Shown here: piece after piece, positions 14,207 through 44,039 of the stretch
How positions within the stretch are numbered: position 1 is the stretch's first letter
Layout: each line of letters opens with the position of its first letter
From: a bacterium
Lineage (GTDB): Bacteria > SZUA-182 > DTGQ01
NCBI GenBank assembly: GCA_040755755.1
Contig: JBFLZW010000083.1
Coordinates: 9,791 to 73,790 of the forward strand
Length of the DNA: 64,000 nt
Direction of reading: 5' to 3'
Program-made: the position numbers and the translations under genes
Notes under the pieces: model-generated
Told to the model about the DNA's origin: nothing
The model's database searches: none
Seen by the model: the letters and a program-made list of their open reading frames with translations, nothing else

Positions 14207-14227
14207 AAACAGCCACGGGAGTATATC

Positions 14228-15061: not shown

Positions 15062-15067
15062 TAATTT

Positions 15068-15244: not shown

Positions 15245-15481
15245 GATCGTTTTCCCCTGTGCGCTTTGTGTTCTCTCTATATTATAAGCTTAGCTTATGT
15301 AAGTGCCATTCTGCCTATCCCTGCATAGGACCTTTCGGCTTACGGGTGTATAAAATGGCTGACAGAATTGAATGGATAAAAAAATACCACAACTACCATT
15401 ACATGCTCAGTGCAGTGAAAGAAACGGAGTAATTGATCAACCTGTCCATGAACCTGGAAAGGAGAAGAAGGAGATATATTC
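15245..15481 (+). other. Non-coding gap before the deacetylase
   Basis: This 237-base stretch has no convincing gene. A 25-codon frame at 15355-15432 (MADRIEWIKKYHNYHYML...) has no ribosome site and no known motif, so it is not called. Strong Shine-Dalgarno sites (AAGGAGAAGAAGGAG) at the end belong to the deacetylase gene. Confidence 0.5.
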
Positions 15482-16690: not shown

Positions 16691-16696
16691 TCCAGA

Positions 16697-16762
<66 letters not shown>

Positions 16763-16795
16763 ATAAAAGTATAATACTCACCCGTCGTTAGCATA

Positions 16796-18262: not shown

Positions 18263-18291
18263 CGGGTTATGAATCAAGGGAGTACGACACT

Positions 18292-19545: not shown

Positions 19546-19577
19546 GACAACTTCACAGGATGCGGAAAGCTTGAGTC

Positions 19578-22207: not shown

Positions 22208-22255
22208 GGATTACTCATTGTTGGTAATGAGTTATTGAGAGATAGGAGGGAGTTC

Positions 22256-22828: not shown

Positions 22829-22866
22829 TCTTACCATGCACTCATAAGAAGAGGTGATGAAAGGAA

Positions 22867-25945: not shown

Positions 25946-26003
25946 GATACCACCACAAAGATTGAAGTTTAAATTTAGATATATCATCGGTAAGAGAGGT
26001 ATT

Positions 26004-28644: not shown

Positions 28645-28654
28645 AGACAAACTT

Positions 28655-29617: not shown

Positions 29618-30204
29618 GCAGCAAACGAGAAGTGAATCCGCCTCCCTTCATTCACCAATTAGCCATAGTTGAAACCAAAAAGATTGGCTGCGGTACCCGT
29701 ATCTGGGCATGGACCCACATTCAAGAGGATGTTGTGGTGGGAGAGTATTGTAATGTCGGAGAGCACTGTTTTTTGGAAAACGGCGTTTCGATAGGCAATC
29801 GGGTTGTGGTTAAGAATGGCATTTCCCTCTGGCAGGGAATCACCGTTGCGGACCAGGCTTTCATAGGGCCTCATGTTGTTTTTACCAATGAGCGGTTTCC
29901 ACGCTCCGGCTTTCCCAAGCCGTATGAGGCCATTACCATTGAGCGGGGAGCAAGTATTGGCGCCGGTTCAGTTATTGTTCCCGGCATCCGGATAGGCTGT
30001 TATGCAACTATCGGTGCTGGTTCGGTAGTTACCCGCACGGTGGCCGACCATGCCCTGGTATTTGGAAATCCTGCCAGGCGACAGGGCTGGATGTGTATAT
30101 GCGGTTTAAAGCTGAAAGTCAGTGATCCAATGGCCCCGACAACCTGTGAGTGCGGAAGGAAGTATGAAATATATCAAGAAACCTGCCGGCTGCTGGCTGG
30201 CTGA
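29614..30204 (+). CDS. Hexapeptide N-acetyltransferase (WbpD-like)
   Basis: The 196-residue protein is built of left-handed beta-helix hexapeptide repeats (IGNRVVVKNGISLWQG, ASIGAGSVIVPGIRIG, ATIGAGSVVTRTVADHALVFGNPA). VFTNERFPRSGFPKP is typical of the WbpD subfamily. A C-terminal Cys cluster (MCICGLKL and TTCECGRKY) forms a possible zinc ribbon. It would acetylate the 3-amino sugar made by the preceding two enzymes, using acetyl-CoA. It starts by ATGA overlap. Confidence 0.88.
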   Translation: MSSKREVNPPPFIHQLAIVETKKIGCGTRIWAWTHIQEDVVVGEYCNVGEHCFLENGVSIGNRVVVKNGISLWQGITVADQAFIGPHVVFTNERFPRSGFPKPYEAITIERGASIGAGSVIVPGIRIGCYATIGAGSVVTRTVADHALVFGNPARRQGWMCICGLKLKVSDPMAPTTCECGRKYEIYQETCRLLAG

Positions 30205-30236
30205 AATATAAACCTAAGTGTAAGGAGATTGGAGAG

Positions 30237-31307
30237 ATGATAATTACCAGAACCCCATTCAGGATAACCCTGGGAGGAGGAGGAACGGATTTGCCTTCGT
30301 ATTATACCCGATACGGAGGGTTTGTCTTTAGTGCTGCCATCAACAAGTATATGTTTATTAATTTAAACCGGCCGGTAGTAGATGATCTGGTCAGGGTAAA
30401 GTACGCCAAATCGGAAATTGTCAAGCACAGGGATGATCTCCAGCACGAGATTGCCAGGGCTGCCCTGAGCATGCTGGGCATTGAAAAGGCCATTGAAGTC
30501 ATTTCATCAGCCGACATTCCTGATGGGACAGGGCTGGGATCATCGAGCTGTTACACCGTTGGCCTGCTGAACGCTATTCATGCATTAAAGCGTGATTATA
30601 TCAGTCTTCCTGATCTGGCCGAGGAAGCCTGCTACCTCGAGATTGAGCAGTTAAAGAAACCTATCGGAAAGCAGGATCAATATATTGCCACCTTCGGGGG
30701 ATTGACTGCCTTTGAGATTGCCAGGGATGGGAGAGTTACCGTGATGCGGGTTGATGTTCCTCCCAGCGTAGTGGACGACCTCAGGCGAAATATGTTGATG
30801 TTCTACACCGGCGTATCGCGGCAGAGTATGGATATCCTGAGTGAGCAGAATAAAGGGGCGCAAAACAGCAAAAAGACGGTACTGGACAGTCTTCACTATA
30901 TCAAAGAAAGCGGATACCAGATCAAGGAGCTGATTGAAAAGGGGAACTTGACCGATTTTGGCCTGATGCTGGACAAGCACTGGGAACATAAGAAGAAAAT
31001 GTCTTCCAAAATATCCAGCCTGGAATTTGACCGGATTTATCAGGTAGCCAAAGACTATGGGGCTCTTGGTGGAAAAATAACCGGTGCCGGAGGGGGAGGC
31101 TTTTTCCTGTTTTACATTGAGAAAGGCCATGACCAGTTACGAACGGCGATGCATATGATGGGGCTTCGGGAAATGCGGTTTAACTTTGAGTTTGAAGGAT
31201 CAAAGATTCTCGTAAACCTGGTGAACAGTGAAAATGAATATCAGGGGCGTCACTTGTGGAGCATACCCCAGATTCAGAAGAGAATGTCGGTAATCCATGC
31301 AATTTAA
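30237..31307 (+). CDS. hddA: GHMP-family heptose-7-phosphate kinase (HddA-like)
   Basis: The 356-residue GHMP kinase has RTPFRITLGGGGTDLPSYY at the N-terminus, the P-loop-like PDGTGLGSSSCYTVGLLN and the C-terminal GGKITGAGGGGFFLFY. The sequence is typical of D-glycero-alpha-D-manno-heptose-7-phosphate kinase, which phosphorylates C1 of the heptose-7-phosphate. Genes for the isomerase, phosphatase and guanylyltransferase of the same pathway lie at 33-36 kb, completing the GDP-heptose route. AAGGAGATTGGAGAG precedes the ATG. Confidence 0.88.
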   Translation: MIITRTPFRITLGGGGTDLPSYYTRYGGFVFSAAINKYMFINLNRPVVDDLVRVKYAKSEIVKHRDDLQHEIARAALSMLGIEKAIEVISSADIPDGTGLGSSSCYTVGLLNAIHALKRDYISLPDLAEEACYLEIEQLKKPIGKQDQYIATFGGLTAFEIARDGRVTVMRVDVPPSVVDDLRRNMLMFYTGVSRQSMDILSEQNKGAQNSKKTVLDSLHYIKESGYQIKELIEKGNLTDFGLMLDKHWEHKKKMSSKISSLEFDRIYQVAKDYGALGGKITGAGGGGFFLFYIEKGHDQLRTAMHMMGLREMRFNFEFEGSKILVNLVNSENEYQGRHLWSIPQIQKRMSVIHAI

Positions 31308-31321
31308 GTTAAGGTAAGGCC

Positions 31322-32149
31322 ATGAAACTCAAAGGGAAAATAGCCATTATCACTGGTGGGAGCCGCGGGATAGGAAAGGCTATCGCCAGGGCATTTCTGG
31401 CAGAGGGAGCTTTGGTAACTATTACCGGCCGGAATCAGGATGAATTAGCCAGGGCTGGTGAAGAGCTGTCAAGGGTTGGAGCTATCCGCAGCTTCCGCGC
31501 TGACATCAGGGAGGAGCAGGAAATACGGCAACTTGTTGCCGAGGTCCTGAACACCTTCGGCACGATCGATGTGCTGGTAAACAATGCGGGCATTCAGGGC
31601 CCTATCGGGAAATTCTGGGAAGTTGATTGTGAGGATTGGGCTGATAACATCAAAGTTAACCTTCTGGGGACTGTGCGATGCACCAGGAGTGTAGTGCCAA
31701 TCATGATAGCCAAAAAAGCAGGCAAGATCATCAACCTGTCAGGTGGCGGCGCTGCTGCCTCAAGGCCCTGTTTTTCAGCCTATGGGGCAGGAAAAGCGGC
31801 TCTTGTCCGGTTCACCGAAATTCTGGCCGAGGAGGTCAGAGAGTATCACATCGACGTCAACGCTCTGGCCCCCGGGGCAGTGAATACAAGGATGCTGCAC
31901 GAGATACTGGAGGCAGAAGCAAAGGCTGGTGAGAAAGAACTGAGGGACGCCAGAGAGAGGAGCGAAAAAGGGGGGACATCTCCTGAGCTGGCAGCGGCTT
32001 TGGCGGTTTTTTTAGCTTCATCTGCGTCTGATGGCCTGAGTGGACGTCTCATCAGCGCGGTTTGGGACAACTGGCAGCAGTTTAGCCCGGACCGGATTGC
32101 ATCGATAATGTCGGGCAACTTATATACGCTGAGAAGGGTGAGTCAATGA
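31322..32149 (+). CDS. Short-chain dehydrogenase/reductase
   Basis: The 275-residue enzyme has the NAD(P) motif GGSRGIGKA, NNAGI, INLSGGG and the catalytic pair SAYGAGKAAL. It may act on a nucleotide-sugar intermediate in the heptose branch, or elsewhere. It follows the heptose kinase by 14 bases with AAGGTAAGG, and is followed by a Gfo/Idh gene. Substrate cannot be read. Confidence 0.88.
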   Translation: MKLKGKIAIITGGSRGIGKAIARAFLAEGALVTITGRNQDELARAGEELSRVGAIRSFRADIREEQEIRQLVAEVLNTFGTIDVLVNNAGIQGPIGKFWEVDCEDWADNIKVNLLGTVRCTRSVVPIMIAKKAGKIINLSGGGAAASRPCFSAYGAGKAALVRFTEILAEEVREYHIDVNALAPGAVNTRMLHEILEAEAKAGEKELRDARERSEKGGTSPELAAALAVFLASSASDGLSGRLISAVWDNWQQFSPDRIASIMSGNLYTLRRVSQ

Positions 32150-32192
32150 TCAATAACCACCGTGATGGAATACCGAGTCGGAGGAAATCACC

Positions 32193-33194
32193 ATGAAGGT
32201 GGCCATTATAGGAGCAGGCTTAATAGGGAATAAGAGAGCTATGGCTATCGGGAAATCACCAGGGTGCAGGCTGGCGGCTGTTTGTGATGTTAATCCTGAG
32301 CGGGCAGGGAAACTGGCGCAAATGTATGGCGCGGATACCTACCAGAACTGGGAGGAGATGGGGCAGCGGGATGATATAGAGACGGTAGTCATTGCTACTG
32401 TCAATAAGTTTCTGGCTCCCATTGCCGTATTTTTCCTGGAGAGAGGAAAGCATGTCCTGTGTGAAAAGCCCCTGGGGAGGAATGCCCGGGAAGCTGGCTT
32501 AATGGTAGAGGCTGCCAGAAAGAGCGGGGTGAAGCTGAAGACCGGCTTCAATCACCGTCATCATCCGGGAATAGCCAGGGCACGGCAGCTTGTTGACGAG
32601 GGGCGGATTGGTGAAATCAGCTTCCTGCGGTGCAGGTACGGGCACGGAGGAAGGCCGGGGTATGATCGCGAATGGCGGGCGGATAAGAATTTGTGCGGTG
32701 GCGGTGAATTGCTGGATCAGGGGGTACATGTAGTCGATCTTTTCCGGTGGTTTGCCGGGGATTTTCATGAGGTTTTTGGCTATCTTCCCACCTTGTTCTG
32801 GAACATGCAGGTTGAGGATAATGCCTTTGCCCTGTTTAAGACAAAGACCGGACAGATTGCTTCTCTCCATACCAGTTGGACTCAATGGAAAAACATTTTC
32901 TCCTTTGAGGTATTTGGCCGTGACGGCTATGTGATTGTAGAGGGTTTGGGCGGAAGCTATGGTCCGGAAAGGCTGAAAGCAGGAAGACGAAGATCTGAGG
33001 GCGGAGCCCCGGAAGAGGAGACCATTGATTTTCCCGCCGAGGATATTTCCTGGGAAGAGGAGTGGAAGGAACTGGTACAGGCCATCAGGGAAAACCGTGA
33101 ACCATTAGGGAGCGGGCAGGATGGATACGAGGCCAACCGAATGCTGGAAGCGGTGTATGATTCAGCCCGGCTTGGCAGACCGGTTGAGCTCTAG
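32193..33194 (+). CDS. Gfo/Idh/MocA family oxidoreductase
   Basis: This NAD(P)-binding oxidoreductase of 333 residues has AIIGAGLIGNKRAMAIG at the start, the EKP motif in VLCEKPLGRN, and GGGELLDQGVHVVDLFRW. It is distinct from the earlier Gfo/Idh gene and likely acts on another sugar of the same locus. GGAGGAAATCACC precedes the ATG. Whether it works with the SDR gene in front is an inference from adjacency. Confidence 0.85.
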   Translation: MKVAIIGAGLIGNKRAMAIGKSPGCRLAAVCDVNPERAGKLAQMYGADTYQNWEEMGQRDDIETVVIATVNKFLAPIAVFFLERGKHVLCEKPLGRNAREAGLMVEAARKSGVKLKTGFNHRHHPGIARARQLVDEGRIGEISFLRCRYGHGGRPGYDREWRADKNLCGGGELLDQGVHVVDLFRWFAGDFHEVFGYLPTLFWNMQVEDNAFALFKTKTGQIASLHTSWTQWKNIFSFEVFGRDGYVIVEGLGGSYGPERLKAGRRRSEGGAPEEETIDFPAEDISWEEEWKELVQAIRENREPLGSGQDGYEANRMLEAVYDSARLGRPVEL

Positions 33195-33257
33195 GCCATT
33201 GCCCCCCTATAAGATAGAGTGAAGTTATAAGACAATCATCACAAGGAATCAAGCATC

Positions 33258-34199
33258 ATGAATAAAAAAATTGTCTTAGTTACCGGCTGTGCAGGCTTTA
33301 TTGGCAGCAACCTCAGTAAATGCCTCTGTGACGAAGGGTATAAGGTAGTGGGCATTGATAATCTCTCTCACGGCACTATTGAGAATGTCGATCACCGGGT
33401 TATCTTTCATAAGAAAGATATTCGGGATCAGGAGATTTATTCATTATTTGAAGGAGTGGATACCGTATTTCACCTGGCTGCCAAAAACTGCCTGATTGAC
33501 TGCCTGCGCAATCCCCTTGAGACGAGCGGAATTAATGTGTATGGAACAGTAAATGTTCTTGAAGGAGCCAGGAGAGCCAGGGTGAGAAAGTTTATCTACG
33601 CGGATACCTCGGCTGAATATGAGGGAGTACCTGATTTCCCCTCCACGGTAGAGAGGGTATGTCCTATCGGCACTTACGCAGTGAGCAAGAGGGGAGCCGC
33701 TCTTTTTTGCGAGAGTTACCGCAACCTCCATAGAATGAATATTACTACCTTGCGATATTTTAATGTTTACGGTCCTGCGCAGGATTGGCGGCGCGTAGTG
33801 CCTCCGGTAATGAGCTCTTTCATTATTAAAATGCTCAAGGGGGAAAGGCCGGTAATTTACGGAAATGGAGAAAAAAGGAGGGATTTTATCTACGTGGACG
33901 ATGTCAACCAATTTCACCTTTTAGCTATGAATGATGAGAAATTACATGGCAAAACGTTCAATGTGGGCAGTGGCACGAACTATTCAATCAATGAAATTTT
34001 TTCTGCCATTGAAGGAATCCTGCAAACCGGTCTGACTCCAATCTATAAAGAGGATTTGCCGGGAGAGGCGCAAATCACTCTGGCGGATATCTCCCGGGAG
34101 AAGGAAATCGGCTGGGAGCCGCGAATAAGTCTGCAGGAAGGATTGAAAAGATCGATTGAGTATATCCAAAGAAGGGTACTTCAGGTGGATCTGTCATGA
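33258..34199 (+). CDS. NAD-dependent nucleotide-sugar epimerase/dehydratase
   Basis: The 313-residue extended SDR has GCAGFIGSNL, ADTSAEYEG in place of the usual SS-VYG, the catalytic GTYAVSK, and the later FNVYGPAQDWRRVVPP and NGEKRRDFIYVDDV. It could be an epimerase or dehydratase on GDP-heptose, or a UDP-sugar epimerase. Its ATGA overlap with the heptose guanylyltransferase gene favours the former. AAGGAATC precedes the ATG. Confidence 0.85.
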   Translation: MNKKIVLVTGCAGFIGSNLSKCLCDEGYKVVGIDNLSHGTIENVDHRVIFHKKDIRDQEIYSLFEGVDTVFHLAAKNCLIDCLRNPLETSGINVYGTVNVLEGARRARVRKFIYADTSAEYEGVPDFPSTVERVCPIGTYAVSKRGAALFCESYRNLHRMNITTLRYFNVYGPAQDWRRVVPPVMSSFIIKMLKGERPVIYGNGEKRRDFIYVDDVNQFHLLAMNDEKLHGKTFNVGSGTNYSINEIFSAIEGILQTGLTPIYKEDLPGEAQITLADISREKEIGWEPRISLQEGLKRSIEYIQRRVLQVDLS

Positions 34200-34915
34200 A
34201 AGGAATTGTTCTTTCTGCCGGTAAAGGAACACGGCTTGGCCAGTATACGCGAAATATCCCCAAGGTGATGCTGGAAATCGGGGGAAAGCCGGTACTGGAA
34301 CACGGAATCCTGCTTCTGAAAAAGCATGGGATTGAGGAAATTTTCCTTAACCTCCACTACTGCCCGCAGGTGATTCAGGACTACTTTGGAGATGGCCGAA
34401 AGTGGGGAGTACATATCCGGTATCATTTTGAAGAGGGTCTTTTGGGAACAGCCGGAGCAGTAAAGGCTTTCGAAGAGCAGATAGGGTGGGGGGAAGAAGT
34501 TCTTGTCCTCTATGGAGATAACCTGACCAATTGCAACCTGACCGCTCTGAGGCGTTTTCACCGGGAAAAAAGAGGAATGCTGACCCTGTCCTTTATCGAG
34601 AGTGAGGATGTGCACAAAAGCGGGATTATCGCATTTAATGATAACCATCGGATAGTGAGAATGCTCGAAAAGCCAAAACCGGATGAGGTTTTCAGCCACT
34701 TCGTGAACGCGGGCGTGCTCGTGATGGAGCCTGCGGTGTTCGGCTTGATCCCGCAGGGTATATTTTATGACTTCGGCTATCATCTCCTTCCCAGGATGAT
34801 TTCGGAGGGAATGGAGGTTTATGCTTACCCGATGGATGGATTTTTAATCTCTATAGATACACCGGAATATTATCACCAGGCTCAGGAGATTTTTCGGTTG
34901 GAAGCTGAAGAATAA
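34196..34915 (+). CDS. hddC: Sugar-1-phosphate nucleotidyltransferase (HddC-like)
   Basis: The 239-residue enzyme carries the pyrophosphorylase signature LSAGKGTRLGQYTRNIPKVM at the N-terminus, followed by LLGTAGAVK and LYGDNLTNCNL. Similar to mannose-1-phosphate guanylyltransferases and HddC, it would make GDP-heptose from heptose-1-phosphate. It sits between the epimerase and the phosphatase, overlapping the former (ATGA). The nucleotide (GTP versus others) is not fixed by sequence alone. Confidence 0.82.
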   Translation: MKGIVLSAGKGTRLGQYTRNIPKVMLEIGGKPVLEHGILLLKKHGIEEIFLNLHYCPQVIQDYFGDGRKWGVHIRYHFEEGLLGTAGAVKAFEEQIGWGEEVLVLYGDNLTNCNLTALRRFHREKRGMLTLSFIESEDVHKSGIIAFNDNHRIVRMLEKPKPDEVFSHFVNAGVLVMEPAVFGLIPQGIFYDFGYHLLPRMISEGMEVYAYPMDGFLISIDTPEYYHQAQEIFRLEAEE

Positions 34916-34957
34916 GTGTTAACGTCGTCAGCACGGGCGCAAGAGGGGAAAATTACC

Positions 34958-35722
34958 ATGAAAGGAATGAAAAGAGCAGTATTTCTCGACCGGGATGGGG
35001 TAATTAACGACATTATCTATCACCACGATATCGGGGTAATCGATAGTCCCTTTACCCCTGAACAGTTTCACCTGATCGATGGAGCGGCGCAGGCCATAAA
35101 GGAGATCAAGGGGAACGGTTTACTGGCTGTTGTAGTCAGCAATCAGCCTGGTATAGCCAAGGGGCATTTTAATGAACATGTCTTAGATCTGATTACGGAG
35201 AAAATGATAGCTGATCTGGCTCTTGAAGGGGCAAGCCTGGATGATATTTATCTGTGCCTTCATCATCCTCAGGGAAGCGGGAACGGGAGCGGAGATCGCC
35301 GGTATGTGATGGACTGCACCTGCCGAAAACCAAAACCAGGCCTACTGATCGAGGCAGCCAACAAGCACCGGATAAACCTTGAGGCCTCATATATGATTGG
35401 TGACAGCGTGACGGATATTCAGGCTGGAGCCGCTGTAGGATGCACTACTTTCTTGATTGGCCGGCCTAAATGTGATTTGTGCCGGGTTATAGAGAAAAGT
35501 GGAGTGAAACCGGACTTTATTGTGCCCAGTCTCCTGGAGGCGGTAAAGGTCATCAGGTACCGGGAAAATCTGAGAATCAGCTATCAGGAGATATCTGACG
35601 GGATATCTCTGAAGAATGAAGTATTTATCGATGAAAATCTCTATATTCACGAAGACCGATCGGACAAGAGGAGTTATGTAATCGGAGGGTTTCCCGGCAA
35701 GGAACAGGCAGGGAGAAAATAA
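34958..35722 (+). CDS. gmhB: HAD-family heptose-1,7-bisphosphate phosphatase (GmhB-like), C-terminally extended
   Basis: The protein has the HAD motif I FLDRDGVIN, motif II VVSNQPGIAKG, the metal-binding Cys/His loop (CLHHPQGSG...CTCRKPKPGLL) and MIGDSVTDIQAGAAVG, as in GmhB. Length is 254 residues from the ATG at 34958 (AGAGGGGAAAATTACC upstream), about 60 more than the usual 190. The extra C-terminal part (about 190-254) is polar and of unknown role. It removes the C7 phosphate from heptose-1,7-bisphosphate. A GTG at 34916, with 14 extra residues, is the alternative start. Confidence 0.87.
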   Translation: MKGMKRAVFLDRDGVINDIIYHHDIGVIDSPFTPEQFHLIDGAAQAIKEIKGNGLLAVVVSNQPGIAKGHFNEHVLDLITEKMIADLALEGASLDDIYLCLHHPQGSGNGSGDRRYVMDCTCRKPKPGLLIEAANKHRINLEASYMIGDSVTDIQAGAAVGCTTFLIGRPKCDLCRVIEKSGVKPDFIVPSLLEAVKVIRYRENLRISYQEISDGISLKNEVFIDENLYIHEDRSDKRSYVIGGFPGKEQAGRK

Positions 35723-35756
35723 ACGAGAAATGAAGGTAAGGAGAATGAATGGCATC

Positions 35757-36353
35757 ATGGATTATACAACTGATTATTTTTTAGAGATGCAGAAAATTAT
35801 CGGGCTTTTACAAATTTCGGAAATAGAAAAAATGATCGACCTTCTGGCTGATATGAGAGCAAAGCAGGGAAGACTTTTTTTCCTTGGTATCGGAGGAGGA
35901 GCGGGAAATGCATCCCATGCAGTGAACGACTTTCGCAAGATTGCCGGTTTTGAAGCCTACAGCCCTACGGATAATGCCTCTGAGCTGACTGCCCGCATTA
36001 ATGATGATGGATGGGAGACGGTATTTGTCAGTTGGTTGAAGGGAAGCAGAATTAAGGCTGGGGACGGATTATTTATCTTTTCTGTCGGCGGTGGAAACCT
36101 GGAGAAGAAGATCAGCGCCAACCTTGTATACGCGGTCCAGTATGCTCATGAGGTTGGAGCCAAGGTTCTTGGCATAGTAGGCCGTGACGGTGGGTACACG
36201 GCACAGGCAGCGGACGCCTGTGTGGTTATTCCAACCGTTAACCCTGAAACAGTTACTCCCCATACGGAATCATTTCAGGGGATAATCTGGCATTTAATCG
36301 TTTCCCATCCTAAAATGAAAGTCTCGGAAATGAAATGGGAATCGGTCAAATAG
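35757..36353 (+). CDS. gmhA: SIS-domain phosphoheptose isomerase (GmhA-like)
   Basis: The 198-residue protein has an SIS fold with FLGIGGGAGNASHAVNDFRKIAGFEA and FSVGGGNLEKKISANL, and a His-containing PHTESFQGIIWHLIV at the C-terminus, all as in GmhA. It converts sedoheptulose-7-phosphate to D-glycero-D-manno-heptose-7-phosphate, the entry step of the heptose branch. The start is uncertain: ATG at 35757, 35745 and 35730 are all in frame, with AAGGAG at 35738-35743 fitting 35757 best. Confidence 0.85.
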   Translation: MDYTTDYFLEMQKIIGLLQISEIEKMIDLLADMRAKQGRLFFLGIGGGAGNASHAVNDFRKIAGFEAYSPTDNASELTARINDDGWETVFVSWLKGSRIKAGDGLFIFSVGGGNLEKKISANLVYAVQYAHEVGAKVLGIVGRDGGYTAQAADACVVIPTVNPETVTPHTESFQGIIWHLIVSHPKMKVSEMKWESVK

Positions 36354-36426
36354 AGATATATTCATGGAGTAATACATTCAAATCAAGGAACACGAGAATG
36401 ACAAGGTTATCAAAGAGAGGTCAGGA

Positions 36427-37098
36427 ATGAAAATTTTTATTGATTCAGCAAACCTGAAAGATATTGAAGAAGCACTCAGAAGAGGATTTCCCAGCGGAAT
36501 CACTACCAATCCCTCGATCCTGGCGAAAGAGCAAAAATGTGATTTCAAGGTGCATATCCATAAGATTATCCAATTGGTAAAGGAGTATGGCTATCACAAT
36601 ATTCCTCTGAGTGTGGAGGTTTTCTCCACCGAAGCAGCCGAGATGGTCAGGCAGGCCGAGGATTTTGTGGAGGAGTTTCACTACGAGAATCTCAATATTA
36701 AGATCCCTATTGGCTGGGATGAATTATCCGTGATCAAGCGACTGAAAGACAAAGGTATCAAGGTAAACTGCACCTGCTGCATGTCGTATAATCAGGCTGT
36801 CATGGCGGCTGATGCAGGCTCGGATTTTGTAAGCCTCTTCAGCGGCAGGATCAGGGATATCGGTCATGATTCCTCGGCGGTCATACGTGCCGTGAAGAGG
36901 ACCCTCATAGAATGGGGATGTCCGTCAAAGATCATCGTCGGCAGTATCCGTCACATTGCGGATATTAATGAAGCCATGCAGGCTGGAGCAGATATTGTTA
37001 CCGTCCCGCCCAAGTTTTTCATCCAGATGTGTTCCCATCCCAAGACTACCGAAGCTGTTAACCAGTTTATGAGCGACTTCAAGGAGTGGCTGAAGTAA
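36427..37098 (+). CDS. Transaldolase / fructose-6-phosphate aldolase-like enzyme
   Basis: The 223-residue protein matches the short (FSA/TalC) transaldolase type. It has KIFIDSANLKDIEEALRRGF, ITTNPSILAKE, NIKIPIGWDEL with the Schiff-base Lys, and SLFSGRIRDIG. Placed immediately after the heptose isomerase, it may supply sedoheptulose-7-phosphate or another ketose phosphate to the heptose pathway. The exact activity of short transaldolases cannot be told from sequence. AGAGAGGTCAGGA precedes the ATG. It is the last gene of the polysaccharide locus. Confidence 0.88.
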   Translation: MKIFIDSANLKDIEEALRRGFPSGITTNPSILAKEQKCDFKVHIHKIIQLVKEYGYHNIPLSVEVFSTEAAEMVRQAEDFVEEFHYENLNIKIPIGWDELSVIKRLKDKGIKVNCTCCMSYNQAVMAADAGSDFVSLFSGRIRDIGHDSSAVIRAVKRTLIEWGCPSKIIVGSIRHIADINEAMQAGADIVTVPPKFFIQMCSHPKTTEAVNQFMSDFKEWLK

Positions 37099-37212: not shown

Positions 37213-38424
37213 ATGGCTAAAGAGGAAAAATTCTTTTTAGCTTGCTTACGCTTTTTTCTTCAGAAGACAGGTTCACCAGATGAAATCCGAAGCTCCATGG
37301 GAAAAAATATGGATTGGAACCTCATCCTCTCCTGGGCACAGTCGCATGGGGTTCATCCTTTACTTTATCACGTCCTGAAAGGAGTGAACTGGACAGGAAT
37401 ACCGGGGCAGGTCAGGGAGAGACTGGAGAGTAACTTTCGGGCAAACATGGCCAGAAACCTCATTCTTTCGGCAGAAACAGATAAGGTGCTGATGGCCCTG
37501 GAAAAACGGGGGATAATCAGTGTCCCCCTGAAAGGGATTTTTTTGTCAGAGGAAGTCTACCCGGATATATCATTGAGAGTGGTAACTGACATTGATCTGC
37601 TGGTTCGGGAAGAAGACCTGGCCGGGGCTGAAGAAGCACTGGTAGAGCTGGGATATTGCCACGATCATTCTATCAGGCAGGTCCTTATTCCGAACAACTG
37701 CTACACCCTGCATATGGAGAAAGGAGGGCGAACAGGCCACAACCTCTGTGTTGAGCTGCACTGGGGGCTGGCCAACAGACGGGATTATGTCCTGCCTATG
37801 GAAAGCTGGTGGGAGACAGTCTTTCAGAATACCCGGAATAGATACTATCTGAATGGGATAAGCTGCTTCCGGATGGAACCGGAAATACTGCTGCTCTATT
37901 TGACCATTAACGCTCATATGTCTCGATATGCTTTCCTCAAACAACTTGTCGATATCGCTCAGGTTATCAGCCATTATAAGCACGACATGGATTGGGATAA
38001 AGTGATAGGCATGGCCTGTGAGCTTGGCCTTCTCGACAATCTGGTTTTTGCCCTGGGTCTGGTCTGTCGAATGTTTGACCTGCAAGTATTGCACGTGGCA
38101 GACGAATTATCCAATCGGTTGGCCTCAGGGAAGCAAAGGATATTTCAGGCGCTTTTTCGGGAGCAGAGACTTGTTCATGGCAAGATGGGTCAGGACCTTC
38201 GCCAATTCATCTTATTGTTTTTGCTCGATGAGAAGGTGGTTATCAGGTCAATTTGGAAGGTGATATTTTCCTCTCGGCAGGCTATTGCGTACCGTTATGG
38301 GTTATCTCCTCAATCTTATAGTACCTCTGTATATCTCATTCTCAATCCCTTGCTTTCCCTGTATCGATTACTTCGAGGGTTTATTGTCGATTCCTGGGCG
38401 GGTAAGGGAATTGGAAGGAGTTAA
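37213..38424 (+). CDS. Nucleotidyltransferase of the NTP_transf_5 (PF14907) family
   Basis: The protein (403 residues from the ATG at 37213) has the family's core: VPLKGIFLSEEVYPDIS, then LRVVTDIDLLVREEDL (metal-binding Asp pair), LGYCHDHS, and VELHWGLANRRDYV. The remainder is mainly alpha-helical. In lasso-peptide clusters such nucleotidyltransferases occur with HPr-kinase-like kinases and act on a phosphorylated peptide C-terminus (pseudomycoidin is the case I know). Here it is the first gene of the putative peptide locus, separated from the chaperone gene by an AT-rich gap with a promoter, so it may be transcribed separately. The frame opens further upstream inside the repeat; 37213 is the supported start. 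Confidence 0.8.
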   Translation: MAKEEKFFLACLRFFLQKTGSPDEIRSSMGKNMDWNLILSWAQSHGVHPLLYHVLKGVNWTGIPGQVRERLESNFRANMARNLILSAETDKVLMALEKRGIISVPLKGIFLSEEVYPDISLRVVTDIDLLVREEDLAGAEEALVELGYCHDHSIRQVLIPNNCYTLHMEKGGRTGHNLCVELHWGLANRRDYVLPMESWWETVFQNTRNRYYLNGISCFRMEPEILLLYLTINAHMSRYAFLKQLVDIAQVISHYKHDMDWDKVIGMACELGLLDNLVFALGLVCRMFDLQVLHVADELSNRLASGKQRIFQALFREQRLVHGKMGQDLRQFILLFLLDEKVVIRSIWKVIFSSRQAIAYRYGLSPQSYSTSVYLILNPLLSLYRLLRGFIVDSWAGKGIGRS

Positions 38425-38519
38425 AATTTATAAATAAAATTTAATATTTAAAATATATTCTTTAAATAATAGATAAAAATAATAGATATAATTTTTTTGA
38501 TCATGATTAATGTTTTATA

Positions 38520-38548
38520 TTGAAATTTGATTAAATATTAACTATAAT
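38520..38548 (+). promoter_or_regulatory. Sigma-70 promoter of the peptide-modification genes
   Basis: TTGAAA, exactly 17 bases, then a perfect TATAAT, in a strongly AT-rich gap of 157 bases. Transcription would start near 38555, 27 bases before the PqqD gene. An AGGAG ribosome site follows. Confidence 0.8.
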
Positions 38549-38581
38549 GAATATGAACAATGAATATCAGGAGATTATTTT

Positions 38582-38875
38582 ATGCTTATGAAGTATATCG
38601 CAAAGAATGAAAATACAGCTTCGCGAATAATCGATGGGCAGGCAGTGATCATGACTCTGGGAGACAACACCTTGCATACCTTGAATGGTGTGGGATCAAG
38701 AATATGGGAGTTGTGCACCGGTCAAAAAACCATTGGAGAAATTATCGGCGTGATCCAGTCTGAATATTCAGCCAGCCCTGAAAGTATCAGGTCGGATTGT
38801 GAGATTTTTATTCAGGAGCTTTGTACGAAAGGAATATTGATCGTGCAGGATGAAAAAGCGTCAGAGAAGAATTAG
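38582..38875 (+). CDS. PqqD-family peptide chaperone (RiPP recognition element)
   Basis: The protein (97 residues) has the PqqD winged-helix pattern: IIDGQAVIMTLGDNTLHTLNGVGSRIWEL, then IGEIIGVIQSEY and DCEIFIQELCTKGILI. Such proteins bind a leader peptide and deliver it to a radical SAM or other modifying enzyme. It is followed by the radical SAM gene 12 bases later. AGGAG precedes the ATG. The protein is standalone, as in PQQ and several RiPP systems. Confidence 0.88.
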   Translation: MLMKYIAKNENTASRIIDGQAVIMTLGDNTLHTLNGVGSRIWELCTGQKTIGEIIGVIQSEYSASPESIRSDCEIFIQELCTKGILIVQDEKASEKN

Positions 38876-38887
38876 GTACCAATTATA

Positions 38888-39955
38888 ATGGACATTATAT
38901 CCTATACCCTGGAGAAAAAAATTCCCATTGCTGTCCAAATGAACTTAACCAGGAAATGCAATCTCCACTGCATCCACTGCTGCGTAGGGAAGAGGAGGAA
39001 GACACACAGGGACCAAAACGACAGGGCTGGCTCGGAGTTGAGCCTGCTGCATATTCAGCGGGTTTTCAAGCAATTGGTTCAGGCCGGGTGCCTTCTTCTC
39101 ACGCTGTCGGGGGGTGAGATCTTACTTCGGGAGGATCTGATTGATATTATAAGCTGTGCCCGGAGTATGGGCTTTGCGGTTAAGGTTTTTACCAATGGAA
39201 CCCTGATAGGCAGGAAGAATGCCGAAGCGTTCCAGAGGATGCACCTCCAGGAAGTTCATATAAGTCTGTATGCTGCTGATGCTCATATCCATGACATGAT
39301 CAGCGGTGTTTCCGGCTCCTGGACGAAAACCATGAAAGGAATCCGTCTTCTGAGAGAAGAGGGTATATCGGTGAAGGTAAAATGTCCTATCATGAGGCAA
39401 AACCTCTCCGAATATCGGAGAGTGCATGACCTGGCAGTGAGTCTCGGAGCAGATTATGCCTTTGACCCTGTCATCACAGCCCGGGATGACGGTAACTGCG
39501 ACACACTCAAGTACCGCATTGGCCAGGAGGACTTACGAAGAGTTTTGGCTGATCCGATATTTCAGGGTGAACGGAAAAAGGAGAATGGAACACGAGAGAG
39601 CTTTGCCTGTTCGGCAAGTATGATGAGTGAAGAAGTGCCCTGCAGTGCGGGGCACTATGTCTGCTTCATCTCTCCTGAAGGTGATGTTACTCCTTGTGTT
39701 CAGTTGCCCATTTTCTGCGGCAATGTGCGGGATCATGACTTTAACTGGATATGGCATCATTCACCGCAGATGCTCAGGATACGTAAACTGCGGATGAAAG
39801 ATATTCGTATCTGTAATGACTGCAGTTACCTGCCCTGGTGTGCCAGGTGTCCTGGCTTAGCCTATCTTGAGGATGGAGACCTTCTTGGGCCTTCCAGTGC
39901 CGCTTGCTGGATGGTGAAAGCGAGAGAAGAGGAGAAGCGTTGTAATCAGCTATGA
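38888..39955 (+). CDS. Radical SAM/SPASM peptide-modifying enzyme
   Basis: The 355-residue protein has the radical SAM site Cys24-x3-Cys28-x2-Cys31 (RKCNLHCIHC), LTLSGGEILLREDL and FTNGTLIGRKNA. A Cys-rich C-terminal SPASM region (about 235-345) contains VPCSAG, VTPCVQL, ICNDCSYLPWCARCPG and AACW. Its neighbours, the leader-binding chaperone upstream and a 54-residue peptide gene 74 bases downstream, make it a RiPP maturase. SPASM enzymes of this kind form carbon or sulfur cross-links, epimerise or otherwise alter peptide residues. Which of these occurs cannot be read from sequence. No strong ribosome site; coupling to the chaperone gene is likely. Confidence 0.88.
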   Translation: MDIISYTLEKKIPIAVQMNLTRKCNLHCIHCCVGKRRKTHRDQNDRAGSELSLLHIQRVFKQLVQAGCLLLTLSGGEILLREDLIDIISCARSMGFAVKVFTNGTLIGRKNAEAFQRMHLQEVHISLYAADAHIHDMISGVSGSWTKTMKGIRLLREEGISVKVKCPIMRQNLSEYRRVHDLAVSLGADYAFDPVITARDDGNCDTLKYRIGQEDLRRVLADPIFQGERKKENGTRESFACSASMMSEEVPCSAGHYVCFISPEGDVTPCVQLPIFCGNVRDHDFNWIWHHSPQMLRIRKLRMKDIRICNDCSYLPWCARCPGLAYLEDGDLLGPSSAACWMVKAREEEKRCNQL

Positions 39956-40029
39956 TTAAAATCCAGGCATTACCATATCAAGCCATCGTTGTAAGCTAGG
40001 TTATTATCAATGTATAAGGAGGTAGGATT

Positions 40030-40194
40030 ATGGAACAAAAGAAAACGCTGTCTGAAAAAACAGAAGTCAAAAAGGCTTATGAACAACCCCGGATAGTTTC
40101 CGAGGAAGTATTTGAGACCCTGGCTCTTGCCTGCTGCAAGAGCAATGCCTGTTTGCGATACGGTCTTCCCAGGGGACTGCACGGCGTAAGTTGA
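40030..40194 (+). CDS. Candidate RiPP precursor peptide, 54 residues
   Basis: This gene was found by reading the gap after the radical SAM gene. It has a perfect ribosome site (AAGGAGG at 40017-40023, 6 bases before ATG) and encodes 54 residues. The N-terminal part is charged and leader-like (MEQKKTLSEKTEVKKAYEQP). It continues RIVSEEVFETLALA and then a core with Cys35, Cys36 and Cys41 (CCKSNACLRYGLPRG) and a C-terminal Ser54 after LHGV. The position right after a PqqD/radical SAM pair is the normal place for a precursor. The cleavage site is not known; after Ala34 or nearby is a guess from the ALA-CC boundary. The terminal Ser could be phosphorylated by the kinase at 42542, as in the lasso peptide paeninodin. 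Confidence 0.75.
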   Translation: MEQKKTLSEKTEVKKAYEQPRIVSEEVFETLALACCKSNACLRYGLPRGLHGVS

Positions 40195-40310
40195 TTGACT
40201 AAGGTCGGCCTTTTCAGCCTCGATACCATTTTTCTCAGAGTGAAAATGCCGATATATCCCCCCGGCTTTTCCTGAAACCTGCCTTTGAACCATAATGAGG
40301 AAGAAGAAAA

Positions 40311-42401
40311 ATGAAATGTATGCCTTTTAAAATCCTGACAGCAATGTTGTGTGGATTATTTTTTCGTATATGCCTGTCTGTAGGGTATATGCCCAATGCC
40401 TATGCCCAGGATATTGCAGCAGAGGGTATTGCTTCAAGTCCTCCTCAGGAGAAGACTTCTTCGGGAGTCTCGGTAATAGAAAATATCGAGTACGACCCGG
40501 TAACTCAGATCTATACTTACACCTATACATTGAGAAACCTTGGTAAAAACCTGGTCTGGTGGTGGGGGATATGGTATGAGGAAGATCCTCAGGCCATCCT
40601 TGATGACTCTCAGGCAGATGAGCAGGGCTTCACACCTGCTGATGTGACTGACTGCTCGCCCGGATGGAAGAACACTGCCCCTCAAAACCGTATGGGGTAT
40701 TATTTATATAATGGCCCCAACGGAGAAATGGGCTTTTATTCCACCTATGCCAGCGACTTCCGGTCCGGTAACAGCCCCATTGTCCCTGCCGGGAACGATC
40801 TCCCGCTCATCGGAGGACAATGGGGATGGAATGGGCAAGGGGCTAATATTCTCACTGCCTATGGTATCCAGAAAGGACAAACAGGCTATTATGTAATTCG
40901 ATCCACAAAATACTTCCTGGATAATAAAATGTTTTTCTATAATACGAAAGATTATTGGAATTCATATTACGATAGCCAAACCGGACAACTCATTATCAGA
41001 GGATTTGAATTTGTTTCTACTACTCAGCGCTCTTACAGCATATCGACATCGTCCGGAGAACCTCTGCCGGCCAGCCCAGACGATCCGGTCCTCCCTGAGA
41101 TCGACGGGGGTGATGGCTGGCAGGGAGATGATTCAACCAGACAGGTAATATCCTCTCCTCCAGCAGCCGTCCTGGCCACACCTGTTCTTTCCCCCTCATC
41201 CGTCACGTTTACAGGTTCAATGTCCGTATCAATCACCTGTGCCACGCAAGGTGCTATCATCCGCTACACTAAAGACGGCAGTGAGCCGACAGTAGATTCC
41301 CCTGCCTATACTGCTCCCCTGACACTGACAAAAACAACTACTCTTAAGGCAAAGGCTTTCAAGAGCGGCTATACTGCAAGCGACACCGCAAGCGAAACCT
41401 ACACTAAGTTGGAAAAGGCAGCTATTCCTTCCATTTCGCCAGTATCGCGAACCTTTAGTGATTCAATTACCGTATCACTGACCTGTACGACTCAAGGGGC
41501 TGCTATCCGCTATACGATTGATGGCAGTGAACCGACTGAAACCTCTTCAGCCTATTCAACTCCCTTGATCCTGACCAGCACCACAACCATTAAAGCGAAA
41601 GCCTTCAAGAGCGGTTTCAACCCAAGTGATACCGTAAGCGGAACCTATACGAAACTCATAAAACAAGTAGCTACCCCCGGCTTCTCTCTCCCATCTGGCA
41701 TCTTTCATGGTTCAGTATCTGTGTCGATCACCTGTGCTACCCAAGGGGCTATTGTCCGCTATACAACTGATGGCAGTGAGCCGATTGAGAATTCGCCAAT
41801 CTATACCGCTCCTCTGACCCTGACCAGTACCACCACTATTAAAGCTAAGGCATTCAAGGATGGTTATACTCCGAGTGCTGCCGCCAGAAGTACCTATACG
41901 GAGGAAGTTGAAACAGTGGCCAAACCTGCGTTCTCTCCCCTGCCTCGTACTTTTACCGATTCAGTAGCCGTGTCGATCACCTGCGCCACTCAAGGGGCTA
42001 CTATCCGCTATACGATTGATGGCAGTGAACCGACCGAGAATTCGCCAATTTATGCCGCTCCTCTGACTCTGACCAACACCGCCACTATCAAAGCTCAAGC
42101 TTTCAAGAGTGGCGATGTTCCGAGTGATGCCGTGAGCGGAACCTACACCAAGTTGGCAGCGCCAAAACAGCCTGCGACTAAATTTTCGGATTACTCCAGC
42201 AGTACTACTACTACTATCACCTTGTGGAACCAACCGTGGTCATATTCATATAGCAGCATCGCTATGGACTATCAGCCCTGGTCTTCAACATCCTCAAGCT
42301 GGAGTTATCAGCCCTGGTCTTCCACTTCAAGTTGGGATTATCAATCATGGTCATTTACCACTTCAAGCTGGAATTACCAGCCATGGTCTTCTAATTTTTA
42401 A
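40311..42401 (+). CDS. Secreted repeat protein with four chitobiase-C-terminal-type modules and a Trp/Ser-rich tail
   Basis: The 696-residue protein has a signal peptide (hydrophobic core near residues 7-24, cut after AYA). A domain of about 210 residues follows (GVSVIENIEYDP to GFEFVSTTQRSYS). Four close repeats of about 80 residues come next (roughly 287-366, 370-447, 452-531, 537-615). Each carries the pattern ATQGA-IRYT-DGSEPT-SP-YTAPLTLT-TTTIKAKAFKSG, typical of CHB_HEX_C/FN3-like modules. The C-terminal 65 residues are a tandem of YQPWSSTSSSW-like units with Trp every 6-8 residues. No anchor or sorting signal is seen. It follows the precursor gene by 116 bases, with GAGGAAG. Role is unknown; it could be a surface or cell-wall binding protein, or a second target of the peptide-modifying enzymes (a speculative idea). 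Confidence 0.85.
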   Translation: MKCMPFKILTAMLCGLFFRICLSVGYMPNAYAQDIAAEGIASSPPQEKTSSGVSVIENIEYDPVTQIYTYTYTLRNLGKNLVWWWGIWYEEDPQAILDDSQADEQGFTPADVTDCSPGWKNTAPQNRMGYYLYNGPNGEMGFYSTYASDFRSGNSPIVPAGNDLPLIGGQWGWNGQGANILTAYGIQKGQTGYYVIRSTKYFLDNKMFFYNTKDYWNSYYDSQTGQLIIRGFEFVSTTQRSYSISTSSGEPLPASPDDPVLPEIDGGDGWQGDDSTRQVISSPPAAVLATPVLSPSSVTFTGSMSVSITCATQGAIIRYTKDGSEPTVDSPAYTAPLTLTKTTTLKAKAFKSGYTASDTASETYTKLEKAAIPSISPVSRTFSDSITVSLTCTTQGAAIRYTIDGSEPTETSSAYSTPLILTSTTTIKAKAFKSGFNPSDTVSGTYTKLIKQVATPGFSLPSGIFHGSVSVSITCATQGAIVRYTTDGSEPIENSPIYTAPLTLTSTTTIKAKAFKDGYTPSAAARSTYTEEVETVAKPAFSPLPRTFTDSVAVSITCATQGATIRYTIDGSEPTENSPIYAAPLTLTNTATIKAQAFKSGDVPSDAVSGTYTKLAAPKQPATKFSDYSSSTTTTITLWNQPWSYSYSSIAMDYQPWSSTSSSWSYQPWSSTSSWDYQSWSFTTSSWNYQPWSSNF

Positions 42402-42438
42402 ATTTTGCTGAGTATACCTTTCATTTTATTTCACCCTG

Positions 42439-42478
42439 ATAGGCCCCTGATCCCCATTCATGGGGATCAGGGGCCTAT
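42439..42478 (+). terminator. Long perfect hairpin, likely terminator
   Basis: 18-base perfect arms (42439-42456 and 42461-42478) around a ttca loop. Only a short T-tract follows (ttgtgt), so termination efficiency is uncertain. It separates the repeat protein from the kinase gene. Confidence 0.75.
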
Positions 42479-42541
42479 TTGTGTCTATTCTTAAATACTA
42501 TTCAACTCAACATACATTCTAACCCGGCAGGGAAGCAAAAA

Positions 42542-43387
42542 ATGCGTAACTTCAAATTGGAAATCGGGGGTATACCACTAATAATTAAGTCCTGTGAACC
42601 GTGGTTTATTCAGATGATAGCTGAAAAATATCGAGACTTTGCTTTATTGTGCGGTTTGAAAGAAGAAGGTATTTTTCAAACATCCCGTTCAAGTTCTCAT
42701 CCTCCCGTTCATCTGCAGATTGACATTCGGCAGAAAGAATCGGAGAAATGGAATGATATGCTCGACGAAACACTTTGGGTGGATGTTTCATATCATAATA
42801 AGAAGTTTATCATTCGGAGACCTGATCTTGAGGGGGACATCGATTTTGATAACCGGATTGCCCGCGTTACCAACAGGGCAGCGGTTTACAGTTTTGATTC
42901 CTTTTTGCGAATTCTCTATTCCCTGTTCCTTGTTCAAGAGGGAGGGTTCCTCCTTCATGCTGCCTCAGTTGTAAGAGATGGTCAGGGGTATCTGTTCATG
43001 GGAAAATCCGGAGCAGGAAAGTCCACTATTGCCATCCATTCTTCTAAATACACAGTCTTAAGTGACGAGATTTCCCTGGTTAAAAAGGCAGGTGCCGATT
43101 ATCTGGTCTACAGCACTCCTTTTTGGGGGGAGCAGGAAATTAAGGGCAGGAATTATTTCTCTCCTCTTGCTGGGATTTATCGATTAAAGCAGAGCTCTCA
43201 GTTGCTGACGAGAAAATTGTCCGAAAGGGAGGCATTGTGCAGATTGATGGAAAATATCTTATATTTTAGCCGGGAACCTTTTCTGACCAGACAATTATTT
43301 CAAAACTGTACTGATCTAATCCAGCAAGTAGCAATTTATGAATTGGAATTCCAAAAGGATAGTTCATTTTGGAATATGATCGGTTAG
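42542..43387 (+). CDS. HPr-kinase-like P-loop kinase
   Basis: The protein (281 residues) has the P-loop GKSGAGKSTIAI at about 154-165, preceded by FLLHAASVVRDGQGYLFM, and the TVLSDEISLV Walker B-like site at about 171-180, as in HPr kinase/phosphorylase C-terminal domains. It lacks the HPr-type N-terminal domain. Kinases of this form occur in RiPP clusters; in the lasso peptide paeninodin one phosphorylates the precursor's C-terminal Ser. Here a precursor ending in Ser is encoded in the same locus. ATG 42542 has AGGGAAG upstream; a TTG frame start at 42479 is less likely. A hairpin lies just upstream, so it may have its own promoter. Confidence 0.83.
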   Translation: MRNFKLEIGGIPLIIKSCEPWFIQMIAEKYRDFALLCGLKEEGIFQTSRSSSHPPVHLQIDIRQKESEKWNDMLDETLWVDVSYHNKKFIIRRPDLEGDIDFDNRIARVTNRAAVYSFDSFLRILYSLFLVQEGGFLLHAASVVRDGQGYLFMGKSGAGKSTIAIHSSKYTVLSDEISLVKKAGADYLVYSTPFWGEQEIKGRNYFSPLAGIYRLKQSSQLLTRKLSEREALCRLMENILYFSREPFLTRQLFQNCTDLIQQVAIYELEFQKDSSFWNMIG

Positions 43388-43433
43388 ACAATGAAGAGGG
43401 TAGGAGGGGGTAGGAGGGTAGCTTGCGCTTTTA

Positions 43434-44039
43434 TCAGTTTCCTTTGAGGTTAAAAAAGGAGCACAGAAAATGAAAAGCATACCAAAATCCTTTCCGGAAT
43501 GCTCTATAAGAAAAATCCTGCCATTGACTTTTCCCGCCTTTTTGATTTTCTCTGCCCTTTTCTAATAAGGCATAAATCCTTCCAGCCATTTTATAAAATT
43601 TCAACAGCTTCTGATTTCGCTTCTGCCATAGGACAGGTTGTAATCTGGGGGAAAGCTCCGAATGACCTTCAATATTCATCACAATGGCCGCGATCTCATC
43701 AGGATAGCATACTTTTGGAAAATAATCATTATCTCCCTTTTCCCAGAATAAAAGCCGGTTTTTAAGGCAAAATCTGCCTACAATTCTGTGGATTATTAAG
43801 GTGCCCGCTGCTGTGGAACTACTTCCTACGTCATTTTCCTGCTGAAATGTCAGGCCATTTTGGCAAAAATGGTGAGTGCTTGGGGGCTTTCTTTTTCTTA
43901 AAATAACTATCCTGCCTACCTGGAGATCAGATTCAGGGCTAAAATCTGTCCAGACTTTAGCCGATAGGGTTTTGCCATCAGGAAATAGCCCTTTCATGCT
44001 ATCTCCTTTGATCTTAACTTGCCAGATATCAGTTGTCAT
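43434..44039 (-). CDS. S26 (Sec11-type) signal-peptidase-like serine protease
   Basis: The 201-residue protein has GDSMKGLFPDG (Ser14), IIHRIVG (His84) and KGDNDYF (Asp103). This is the Ser-His-Asp triad of archaeal/eukaryotic Sec11-type signal peptidases rather than the Ser-Lys pair of bacterial LepB. About 30 residues are inserted between the Ser and His motifs. No membrane helix is visible at the N-terminus; a hydrophobic stretch is at the C-terminus (FWYAFHFLCSFF). Small S26-like proteases are found in clusters with HPr-kinase-like kinases, PqqD proteins and nucleotidyltransferases, where leader cleavage is a natural role. It converges on the kinase gene (46-base gap) and lies downstream of the rRNA operon terminator. 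Confidence 0.75.
   Translation of the reverse strand: MTTDIWQVKIKGDSMKGLFPDGKTLSAKVWTDFSPESDLQVGRIVILRKRKPPSTHHFCQNGLTFQQENDVGSSSTAAGTLIIHRIVGRFCLKNRLLFWEKGDNDYFPKVCYPDEIAAIVMNIEGHSELSPRLQPVLWQKRNQKLLKFYKMAGRIYALLEKGRENQKGGKSQWQDFSYRAFRKGFWYAFHFLCSFFNLKGN

Follow-up and report, generated by a model that had tools for sequence, protein, structure and literature searches.

The 64,000-nucleotide stretch analysed here (the window; part of contig JBFLZW010000083.1, from a 5.26 Mb draft genome in 88 contigs) contains a cassette of seven genes that probably directs synthesis of a ribosomally synthesised and post-translationally modified peptide (RiPP). We propose that its product resembles the linear polyphosphorylated peptides (LPP) and the lasso peptide paeninodin, with an added radical SAM (S-adenosylmethionine) step, and put the probability of this reading at about 0.72. 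The evidence, all of it drawn from sequence, comprises the gene set and its synteny, conservation of the precursor, invariant residues of catalytic type, a rule that the last residue is Ser, and linkage to large partner proteins in myxobacteria. An original prediction had listed these seven genes as a probable RiPP locus. The positions were confirmed and the Pfam domain calls hold; the RiPP character is borne out by other genomes, where the same kinase, nucleoside triphosphate (NTP) transferase, PqqD, radical SAM and S26 genes recur with such precursors. The seven genes are as follows (E-values in brackets).

37213..38424, plus strand: NTP_transf_5 nucleotidyltransferase (PF14907, 3.5e-51)
38582..38875, plus strand: discrete RiPP recognition element (RRE) of the PqqD family (PF05402, 1.9e-16)
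38888..39955, plus strand: radical SAM/SPASM maturase (Radical_SAM, 3.5e-21; SPASM, 8.8e-10)
40030..40194, plus strand: precursor peptide of 54 amino acids (aa) (six copies in four genomes, AGGAGG site, codon comparison)
40311..42401, plus strand: secreted protein with CHB_HEX_C/Fn3-associated repeats (Pfam CHB_HEX_C_1/Fn3_assoc)
42542..43387, plus strand: HPr kinase (HPrK)-like kinase (NCBIfam ScmC, 2.7e-12; HprK-related kinases A/B, 7.3e-9/6.9e-7; all under cut-off)
43434..44039, minus strand: S26 signal-peptidase-like protease (NCBIfam signal peptidase I, 3.5e-4, under cut-off)

The precursor peptide

The leader of the 54-aa peptide contains YEQPRIVSEEVFET and its core terminates in CCKSNACLRYGLPRGLHGVS. 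The precursor search suggested by the original prediction covered 60 genomes. The four carriers make up the whole family (4/4, own genome included), the peptide keeps its synteny, and the three Cys and the C-terminal Ser are invariant among them. Alignment of the six own-family copies showed C35, C36, C41, Y44, P47, G49, H51, V53 and S54 to be invariant, so that the core pattern CCK..C..Y..P.G.H.VS-COOH is kept; the leader reads Y..P.[IV]....VFET, with Leu at the third position past FET in all six peptides. Codon comparison with the copy G003b gave 16 synonymous changes (one of them in the stop codon) against 6 non-synonymous ones, with 18 of the 29 base changes in third positions, which favours coding. 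Comparison with G001 was neutral (7 synonymous and 8 non-synonymous changes; 6, 7 and 7 base changes by codon position). Judged by these sequence comparisons, the peptide is a real gene. One family genome, G003, has three copies, of which one is accompanied by the full cassette (L012) and two adjoin other NTP_transf_5 genes.

Two sites were considered for removal of the leader. Cleavage at ALA|CC, in the style of a signal peptidase, would suit the own family and the ALS|C forms; relatives with ALD|C, ALN|C or AVV|C do not fit it. Because of this misfit a cut after FET is favoured and, on the sequences, most likely (judged about 60:25 over ALA|CC). A lipoprotein signal at LALAC was ruled out: there is an Ala at -3, and the sequence shows no signal peptide.

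A wider precursor family, mostly with a terminal Ser

A first contig scan gave seven loci, among which L018 (Kofleriaceae) and L019 (Myxococcales) share the leader and have a different core with a terminal Ser. With a profile built from eight peptides, 377 genomes from the phylum of the Kofleriaceae genome G060 gave 24 carriers of the leader type, and 386 genomes sampled across the domain gave 14: the four of the own family and ten further ones. Both counts are lower bounds because at most 17 first-look candidates were scored per genome. Most of the weaker matches span the leader alone, which makes their C-termini independent of the profile.

We then assembled 51 peptides: 24 from the G060 phylum, that of L019, 20 from the domain sample and 6 from the own family. 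Many are related (the 6 of the own family, 7 from G490, 5 from G535 and G673), and those of L084 and L085 stem from matches containing an in-frame stop. The last residue is Ser in 43 of the 51, while the cores otherwise differ; as a control, 21 of 407 predicted genes in the same regions end in Ser (13 of 242 when the myxobacterial loci are taken by themselves). Taking the first listed match per genome, a terminal Ser was found in nine of the ten genomes outside the myxobacteria and the own family, and in 19 of 25 myxobacterial genomes. Each core has at least two Cys (51/51), and in no fewer than 43 of the 51 peptides the first Cys stands 18 residues past the leader Tyr. The three Cys expected by the original prediction are thus kept within the own family; beyond it the rule becomes at least two Cys and, mostly, a terminal Ser. 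Together, Y..P, a first Cys 18 residues past the Tyr and a terminal Ser form a precursor rule for further finds. Of 54 candidate stretches from viral contigs, none codes for a relative.

Some relatives stand apart. G490 (L092, L093 and L094) has seven related peptides, three of them clustered on one contig, with cores like CEDY..Y..YEGC....GRGK; maturation genes were not found near them on the three contigs fetched. In L009 (10243-13175) and L087 (9786-18135), peptide copies lacking this type of radical SAM cassette have C25 (gingipain-type) domain proteins no more than about 4 kb away, the propeptide part in L009 and propeptide plus peptidase in L087.

Probable maturation enzymes

The NTP_transf_5 protein keeps K107, G108, R122, D126 and D128 invariant in five sequences, residues that we take to be of nucleotidyltransferase catalytic type. 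Its structural model (mean predicted local distance difference test score, pLDDT, 68; low confidence) bears a weak likeness to small nucleotidyltransferases, with one match at E <= 0.001 and FKRP among the weaker ones. We propose that this enzyme attaches a nucleotidyl or sugar(-phosphate) moiety to the peptide once it is phosphorylated.

For the radical SAM/SPASM protein, the cluster residues C24, C28 and C31 as well as Cys 252, 270, 309, 312, 318, 321 and 340 are invariant in eight homologues, and the best matches among solved sequences are PqqE and SkfB. The kinase is barely detected by Pfam (Hpr_kinase_C, E 0.064). It has a Walker A motif, GKSGAGKST, at 154, and H139, D175 and E176 are invariant in six sequences; the latter three are presumably of catalytic type. 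In a fold search its AlphaFold2 model (mean pLDDT 76) matched PEPCK and HPr kinase structures with modest TM-scores. We propose that this kinase phosphorylates the C-terminal Ser.

The RRE had three matches among solved sequences, the best being 9x8z (E 8.9e-9). This entry is LppB, whose residues N33 and D70 are important for leader binding according to the LPP report (PMC13381572). Their counterparts are kept as N35 and D72 in the window RRE, given an inferred chain-numbering offset of 18, and the PqqD protein is proposed to bind the YxxP leader.

The S26 gene gave no Pfam match at E 0.1, and a Ser/His/Asp triad (S14/H84/D103) is aligned with seven cassette homologues. By analogy with LPP, as described in that report, this protein is most likely the leader protease. 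The locus had originally been described as having neither a lasso cyclase nor the usual leader protease. The first part stands for the ten genes scanned with Pfam (34916 to 44039), where no cyclase was found, while the second probably gives way to the S26 protein.

Gene neighbourhoods in relatives

Neighbourhoods were searched with profiles grown from the window enzymes, mostly over 10 kb per side, some regions being cut by contig ends. The 25 myxobacterial loci (24 profile-matched genomes of the G060 phylum plus L019) contain the HPrK-like kinase in 24 cases, radical SAM in 22, S26 in 18, PqqD in 17 and NTP_transf_5 in 4. L049, the sole locus without the kinase, lies on a contig that stops just past the radical SAM gene. 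For the ten other genomes, 18 of 20 peptides were covered, as 16 regions, with the kinase in 5, radical SAM in 8 (that counted for L009 being a more distant one, about 5 kb off), PqqD in 5, S26 in 4 and NTP_transf_5 in 4. All five enzymes occur together in 11 of 47 regions: 4 of the 25 myxobacterial, 4 of the 16 others (two of them belonging to one genus) and 3 of 6 in the own family. The six-gene neighbourhood first noticed in the window therefore recurs elsewhere, with the reservation that NTP_transf_5 is its least constant member in myxobacteria.

These data also bear on whether the cassette is one system. The kinase, the NTP transferase and the S26 protease might instead serve a polysaccharide or a secreted protein, with PqqD, radical SAM and peptide forming a separate RiPP or cofactor system. 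Exopolysaccharide-type genes do lie next to the cassette and to the cassettes of some relatives, and in G003 (L009 and L011) NTP_transf_5 genes stand beside peptides with no kinase near. Against such a division, 24 of the 25 myxobacterial loci have the kinase close to the peptide, including those that lack radical SAM. In seven genomes, picked as peptide carriers, the best kinase-profile match sits in the cassette (7/7), two of the seven having one further weak match. Moreover, S26 and NTP_transf_5 share one open frame in L095 (4252-5895) and in L100, and the S26 and HPrK profiles share one in L114 (2903-4525), a locus of SynChlorMet (SCM) type where Pfam itself is silent, and again in L115 (8264-9859). 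From these shared frames we argue that the three enzymes work in one pathway. The last-Ser rule also speaks against separate systems, an explanation we consider very improbable.

ABC transporter genes adjoin the cassette in L056 (16881-18689) and in the SCM-type locus L117 (72-1937), as in LPP.

Relation to known systems

The closest described system is LPP (lpp of Paenibacillus alginolyticus; Popov et al. 2026, PMC13381572). According to that report, its S26-type leader peptidase requires the RRE and cuts after FET, activity of its NTP transferase was not detected, and its core set, found in polysaccharide loci and stated to be restricted to Bacillota, includes an MsbA-like exporter. LPP and the cassette have in common an S26/SpI-like peptidase with Ser-His-Asp, a discrete RRE, an HPrK-like kinase, an NTP transferase, a YxxP...FET leader and a polysaccharide setting; at the sequence level the comparison was made through LppB alone. 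They differ in the radical SAM gene of the cassette, since neither 'radical' nor 'SPASM' occurs in the main text of the LPP report (0 occurrences each). The LPP leader is YxxPxVLxHQxIxFETxxS, with phospho-Ser at core position 3, whereas the cassette leader is two residues shorter, has no HQ and carries Leu at position 3. No counterpart of the MsbA-like exporter was found among the ten genes from 34916 to 44039, the only part of the genome scanned for one.

The locus could alternatively be a plain LPP system outside Bacillota, its radical SAM gene incidental and its product just a phosphorylated linear peptide. The matching set of S26, RRE, HPrK and NTP transferase in a polysaccharide setting speaks for this, as do the FET that closes the leader motif and LppB as the best solved relative of the RRE. 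It is hard to square with the 22 of 25 myxobacterial loci that have a radical SAM gene close to the peptide and with at least two Cys in every core. The shorter leader without HQ, the Leu in place of Ser at the third position past FET and the presence of a terminal Ser instead also depart from LPP, as does the exporter, which was not among the ten genes scanned, though L056 and L117 have an ABC exporter near. We regard this explanation as improbable.

Lasso peptides provide the parallel for the C-terminus. According to PMC8498205, HPrK homologues of the paeninodin type place a phosphate on the C-terminal Ser, to which, in pseudomycoidin, an NTP transferase adds one or two hexoses. The lasso comparison made in the original prediction was thus a good lead. 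A PqqD-type B1 protein, an HPrK-like kinase, a C-terminal Ser and an NTP transferase are common to these systems, as described there, and the cassette; the macrolactam cyclase and B2 peptidase were not found among the ten cassette-region genes, which have radical SAM and S26 instead.

A further related set is SynChlorMet (NCBIfam TIGR04248-TIGR04251), which has in common with the cassette a PqqD homologue, radical SAM/SPASM and the HPrK-related protein ScmC. The cassette might thus be a member of this catalogued, though uncharacterised, group. ScmC is the best match of the kinase, and ScmD, ScmE and ScmF are also matched by the PqqD and radical SAM proteins. The window nevertheless scores far under the cut-offs (46.6/125 bits for the kinase, 28.6/100 for PqqD, 107.8/400 for ScmE and 93.9/400 for ScmF), and ScmC passes its cut-off in 4 of 372 genomes, the window's genome not among them. 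The SCM locus L112 (G574) likewise carries S26, NTP_transf_5 and a candidate YxxP peptide, but it has two radical SAM genes, and its peptide ends in GG. This candidate SynChlorMet precursor (10162-10326; 55 aa, YEKP leader, two Cys) was chosen by eye among five candidates; it is flanked by the radical SAM genes on one side and the ScmC kinase gene on the other, and gives SynChlorMet a candidate type of precursor. NCBIfam gave no match for the window peptide or eight relatives. Membership in SCM appears to us as improbable as a plain LPP system. From L112, with its S26, NTP_transf_5 and YxxP peptide, gene content judged without a tree suggests that SCM, LPP and the window set are sister branches.

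Other radical SAM systems are more distant. The cassette has a radical SAM/SPASM enzyme and a PqqD-type partner in common with PqqE of the pyrroloquinoline quinone (PQQ) pathway, with the kinase and S26 extra. Sactipeptides (maturase SkfB) have Cys-containing cores like those of the cassette; a Cys thioether of the sactipeptide or ranthipeptide kind may form here.

Because the LPP precursor motif and exporter and the SCM cut-offs are not matched, we keep the cassette outside both groups and see it as a relative of LPP that has a radical SAM gene in addition and, like paeninodin, a C-terminal Ser. It had been called undescribed. Since LPP was published in 2026 and SynChlorMet is curated in NCBIfam, this now applies only to the combination with radical SAM; the set without it is LPP, and SynChlorMet is a related set. 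Among the papers listed from open PMC full text, a search that did not extend to subscription papers, supplements or preprints outside it, no description of this combination was found, nor in passages of PMC4289311 and PMC9062424; the term 'SynChlorMet' itself had no match in open PMC full text. The cassette would therefore unite two RiPP chemistries for which the literature found has no joint report, a radical SAM change of the core and kinase/NTP-transferase tailoring of a C-terminal Ser, and would extend S26-type leader proteases beyond Bacillota.

Proposed pathway

What each step does, the sequence of the steps, the point at which the leader is cut, and the export and role of the product are predictions, as are the cross-linking of Cys, the phosphate and the added sugar or nucleotide anticipated for the locus. 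In the proposed scheme the PqqD protein would hold the leader through Y..P.I and present the precursor. The radical SAM/SPASM enzyme would alter the Cys-bearing core, most likely by a Cys thioether cross-link or a change to an adjacent residue. The HPrK-like kinase would then put phosphate on the C-terminal Ser, to which the NTP_transf_5 protein may attach a nucleotidyl or sugar group, perhaps from a sugar nucleotide made by the exopolysaccharide genes. Finally, the S26 protease would remove the leader, most likely after FET, and the product would probably act at the cell surface with polysaccharide, the secreted repeat protein or both.

Several observations weigh against this LPP/paeninodin-like scheme. 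Eight of the 51 peptides have no terminal Ser (4 Thr, 3 Gly, 1 Leu), and the LPP kinase targets core Ser3 and not a terminal Ser (PMC13381572). FET is present in just 24 of the 51 leaders; in the own family ALA|C also obeys the signal-peptidase rule, a cut after FET being a prediction. The best NCBIfam match of PqqD is a lasso chaperone model, under its cut-off. Of the 25 myxobacterial loci just 4 have NTP_transf_5 close to the peptide, and L054, L057 and L062 have the kinase but no radical SAM gene. In 11 of the 16 regions from other groups the peptide is present and the kinase was not found (paralogues and short contigs are among them), and two of the three G003 copies lack kinase, PqqD and S26 on the stretches examined. 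Pfam found no exporter among the ten genes scanned.

Possible secreted partner proteins

The repeat protein directly downstream of the window peptide has a C-terminus encoded by a 36-bp tandem repeat (42270-42391) giving W/Y/S-rich YQPWSS units, and it is a possible surface partner. A homologue adjoins the peptide in G001; none was found beside it in the G002 and G003 stretches.

Of the 25 myxobacterial loci, 19 have a gene for a protein of 783 to 2599 aa (contig ends truncate some) immediately upstream of the peptide and in the same orientation, which stops 19 to 166 bases ahead of the matched part of the peptide; gene ends are approximate, coming from a purpose-made gene finder seeded with enzyme matches. 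Eighteen of these 19 form one single-linkage group (BLAST E < 1e-10, >200 aa), a grouping that shared repeats may aid. Among the other genes of at least 100 aa in those regions, 3 of 287 reach 780 aa, a limit chosen after the data were seen. A loose lipobox pattern occurs near the start in 11 of the 19. The two group members scanned, L047 and L054, have FG-GAP with fn3-like or Ig-like domains, and L052, outside the group, has EGF domains. By BLAST linkage the window repeat protein falls outside this group. The link to a conserved large secreted protein makes the role of LPP-like peptides directly testable in myxobacteria.

A bolder and, to us, unlikely extension is that these peptides form a widespread RiPP class in which the C-terminal phospho-Ser would be a handle. 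The NTP transferase would link the radical-SAM-modified peptide through its phosphate to a surface polysaccharide sugar or to a neighbouring dedicated surface lipoprotein, the peptide becoming a covalent part of the surface.

Genomic setting and regulatory signals

The following features flank or lie within the cassette.

3825..37098, plus strand: exopolysaccharide cluster abutting the cassette (Pfam on ten genes)
30237..37098, plus strand: genes of sugar-nucleotide type next to the cassette, among them GHMP kinase, NTP_transferase, GmhB-like phosphatase, SIS isomerase and transaldolase-like (Pfam/NCBIfam, five genes)
38520..38548, plus strand: promoter-like site TTGAAA-17-TATAAT, 5′ of the PqqD gene (11/12 consensus match, consensus alone)
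42438..42479, plus strand: terminator-like hairpin, 3′ of the repeat-protein gene (19 bp, 11 of the 19 pairs G-C)

Given the promoter-like site and the hairpin, PqqD, radical SAM, peptide and repeat protein would form one transcription unit; in a scan of the entire region neither promoters (18 vs 12.7 +/- 4.7 in shuffles) nor terminators (6 vs 6.4) were in clear excess. The kinase gene lies beyond the hairpin, and the S26 gene is on the opposite strand to the other cassette genes.

The ten scanned genes of the exopolysaccharide cluster include Poly_export, GNVR, flippase, sugar transferase, GHMP kinase, NTP_transferase and polysaccharide deacetylase families. The genes at 30237..37098 are a possible source of activated sugar; their heptose assignments are inferred because scores fall under NCBIfam cut-offs. 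Also within the cluster, at 22235-23862, a 197-aa protein without a Pfam match is followed by a second radical SAM/SPASM gene, possibly another peptide-maturase pair.

The cassette is followed by two tandem rRNA operons on the minus strand (44140-54989; 16S, two tRNAs, 23S, 5S), which have identical Rfam scores and a spacing of 5595 bases.

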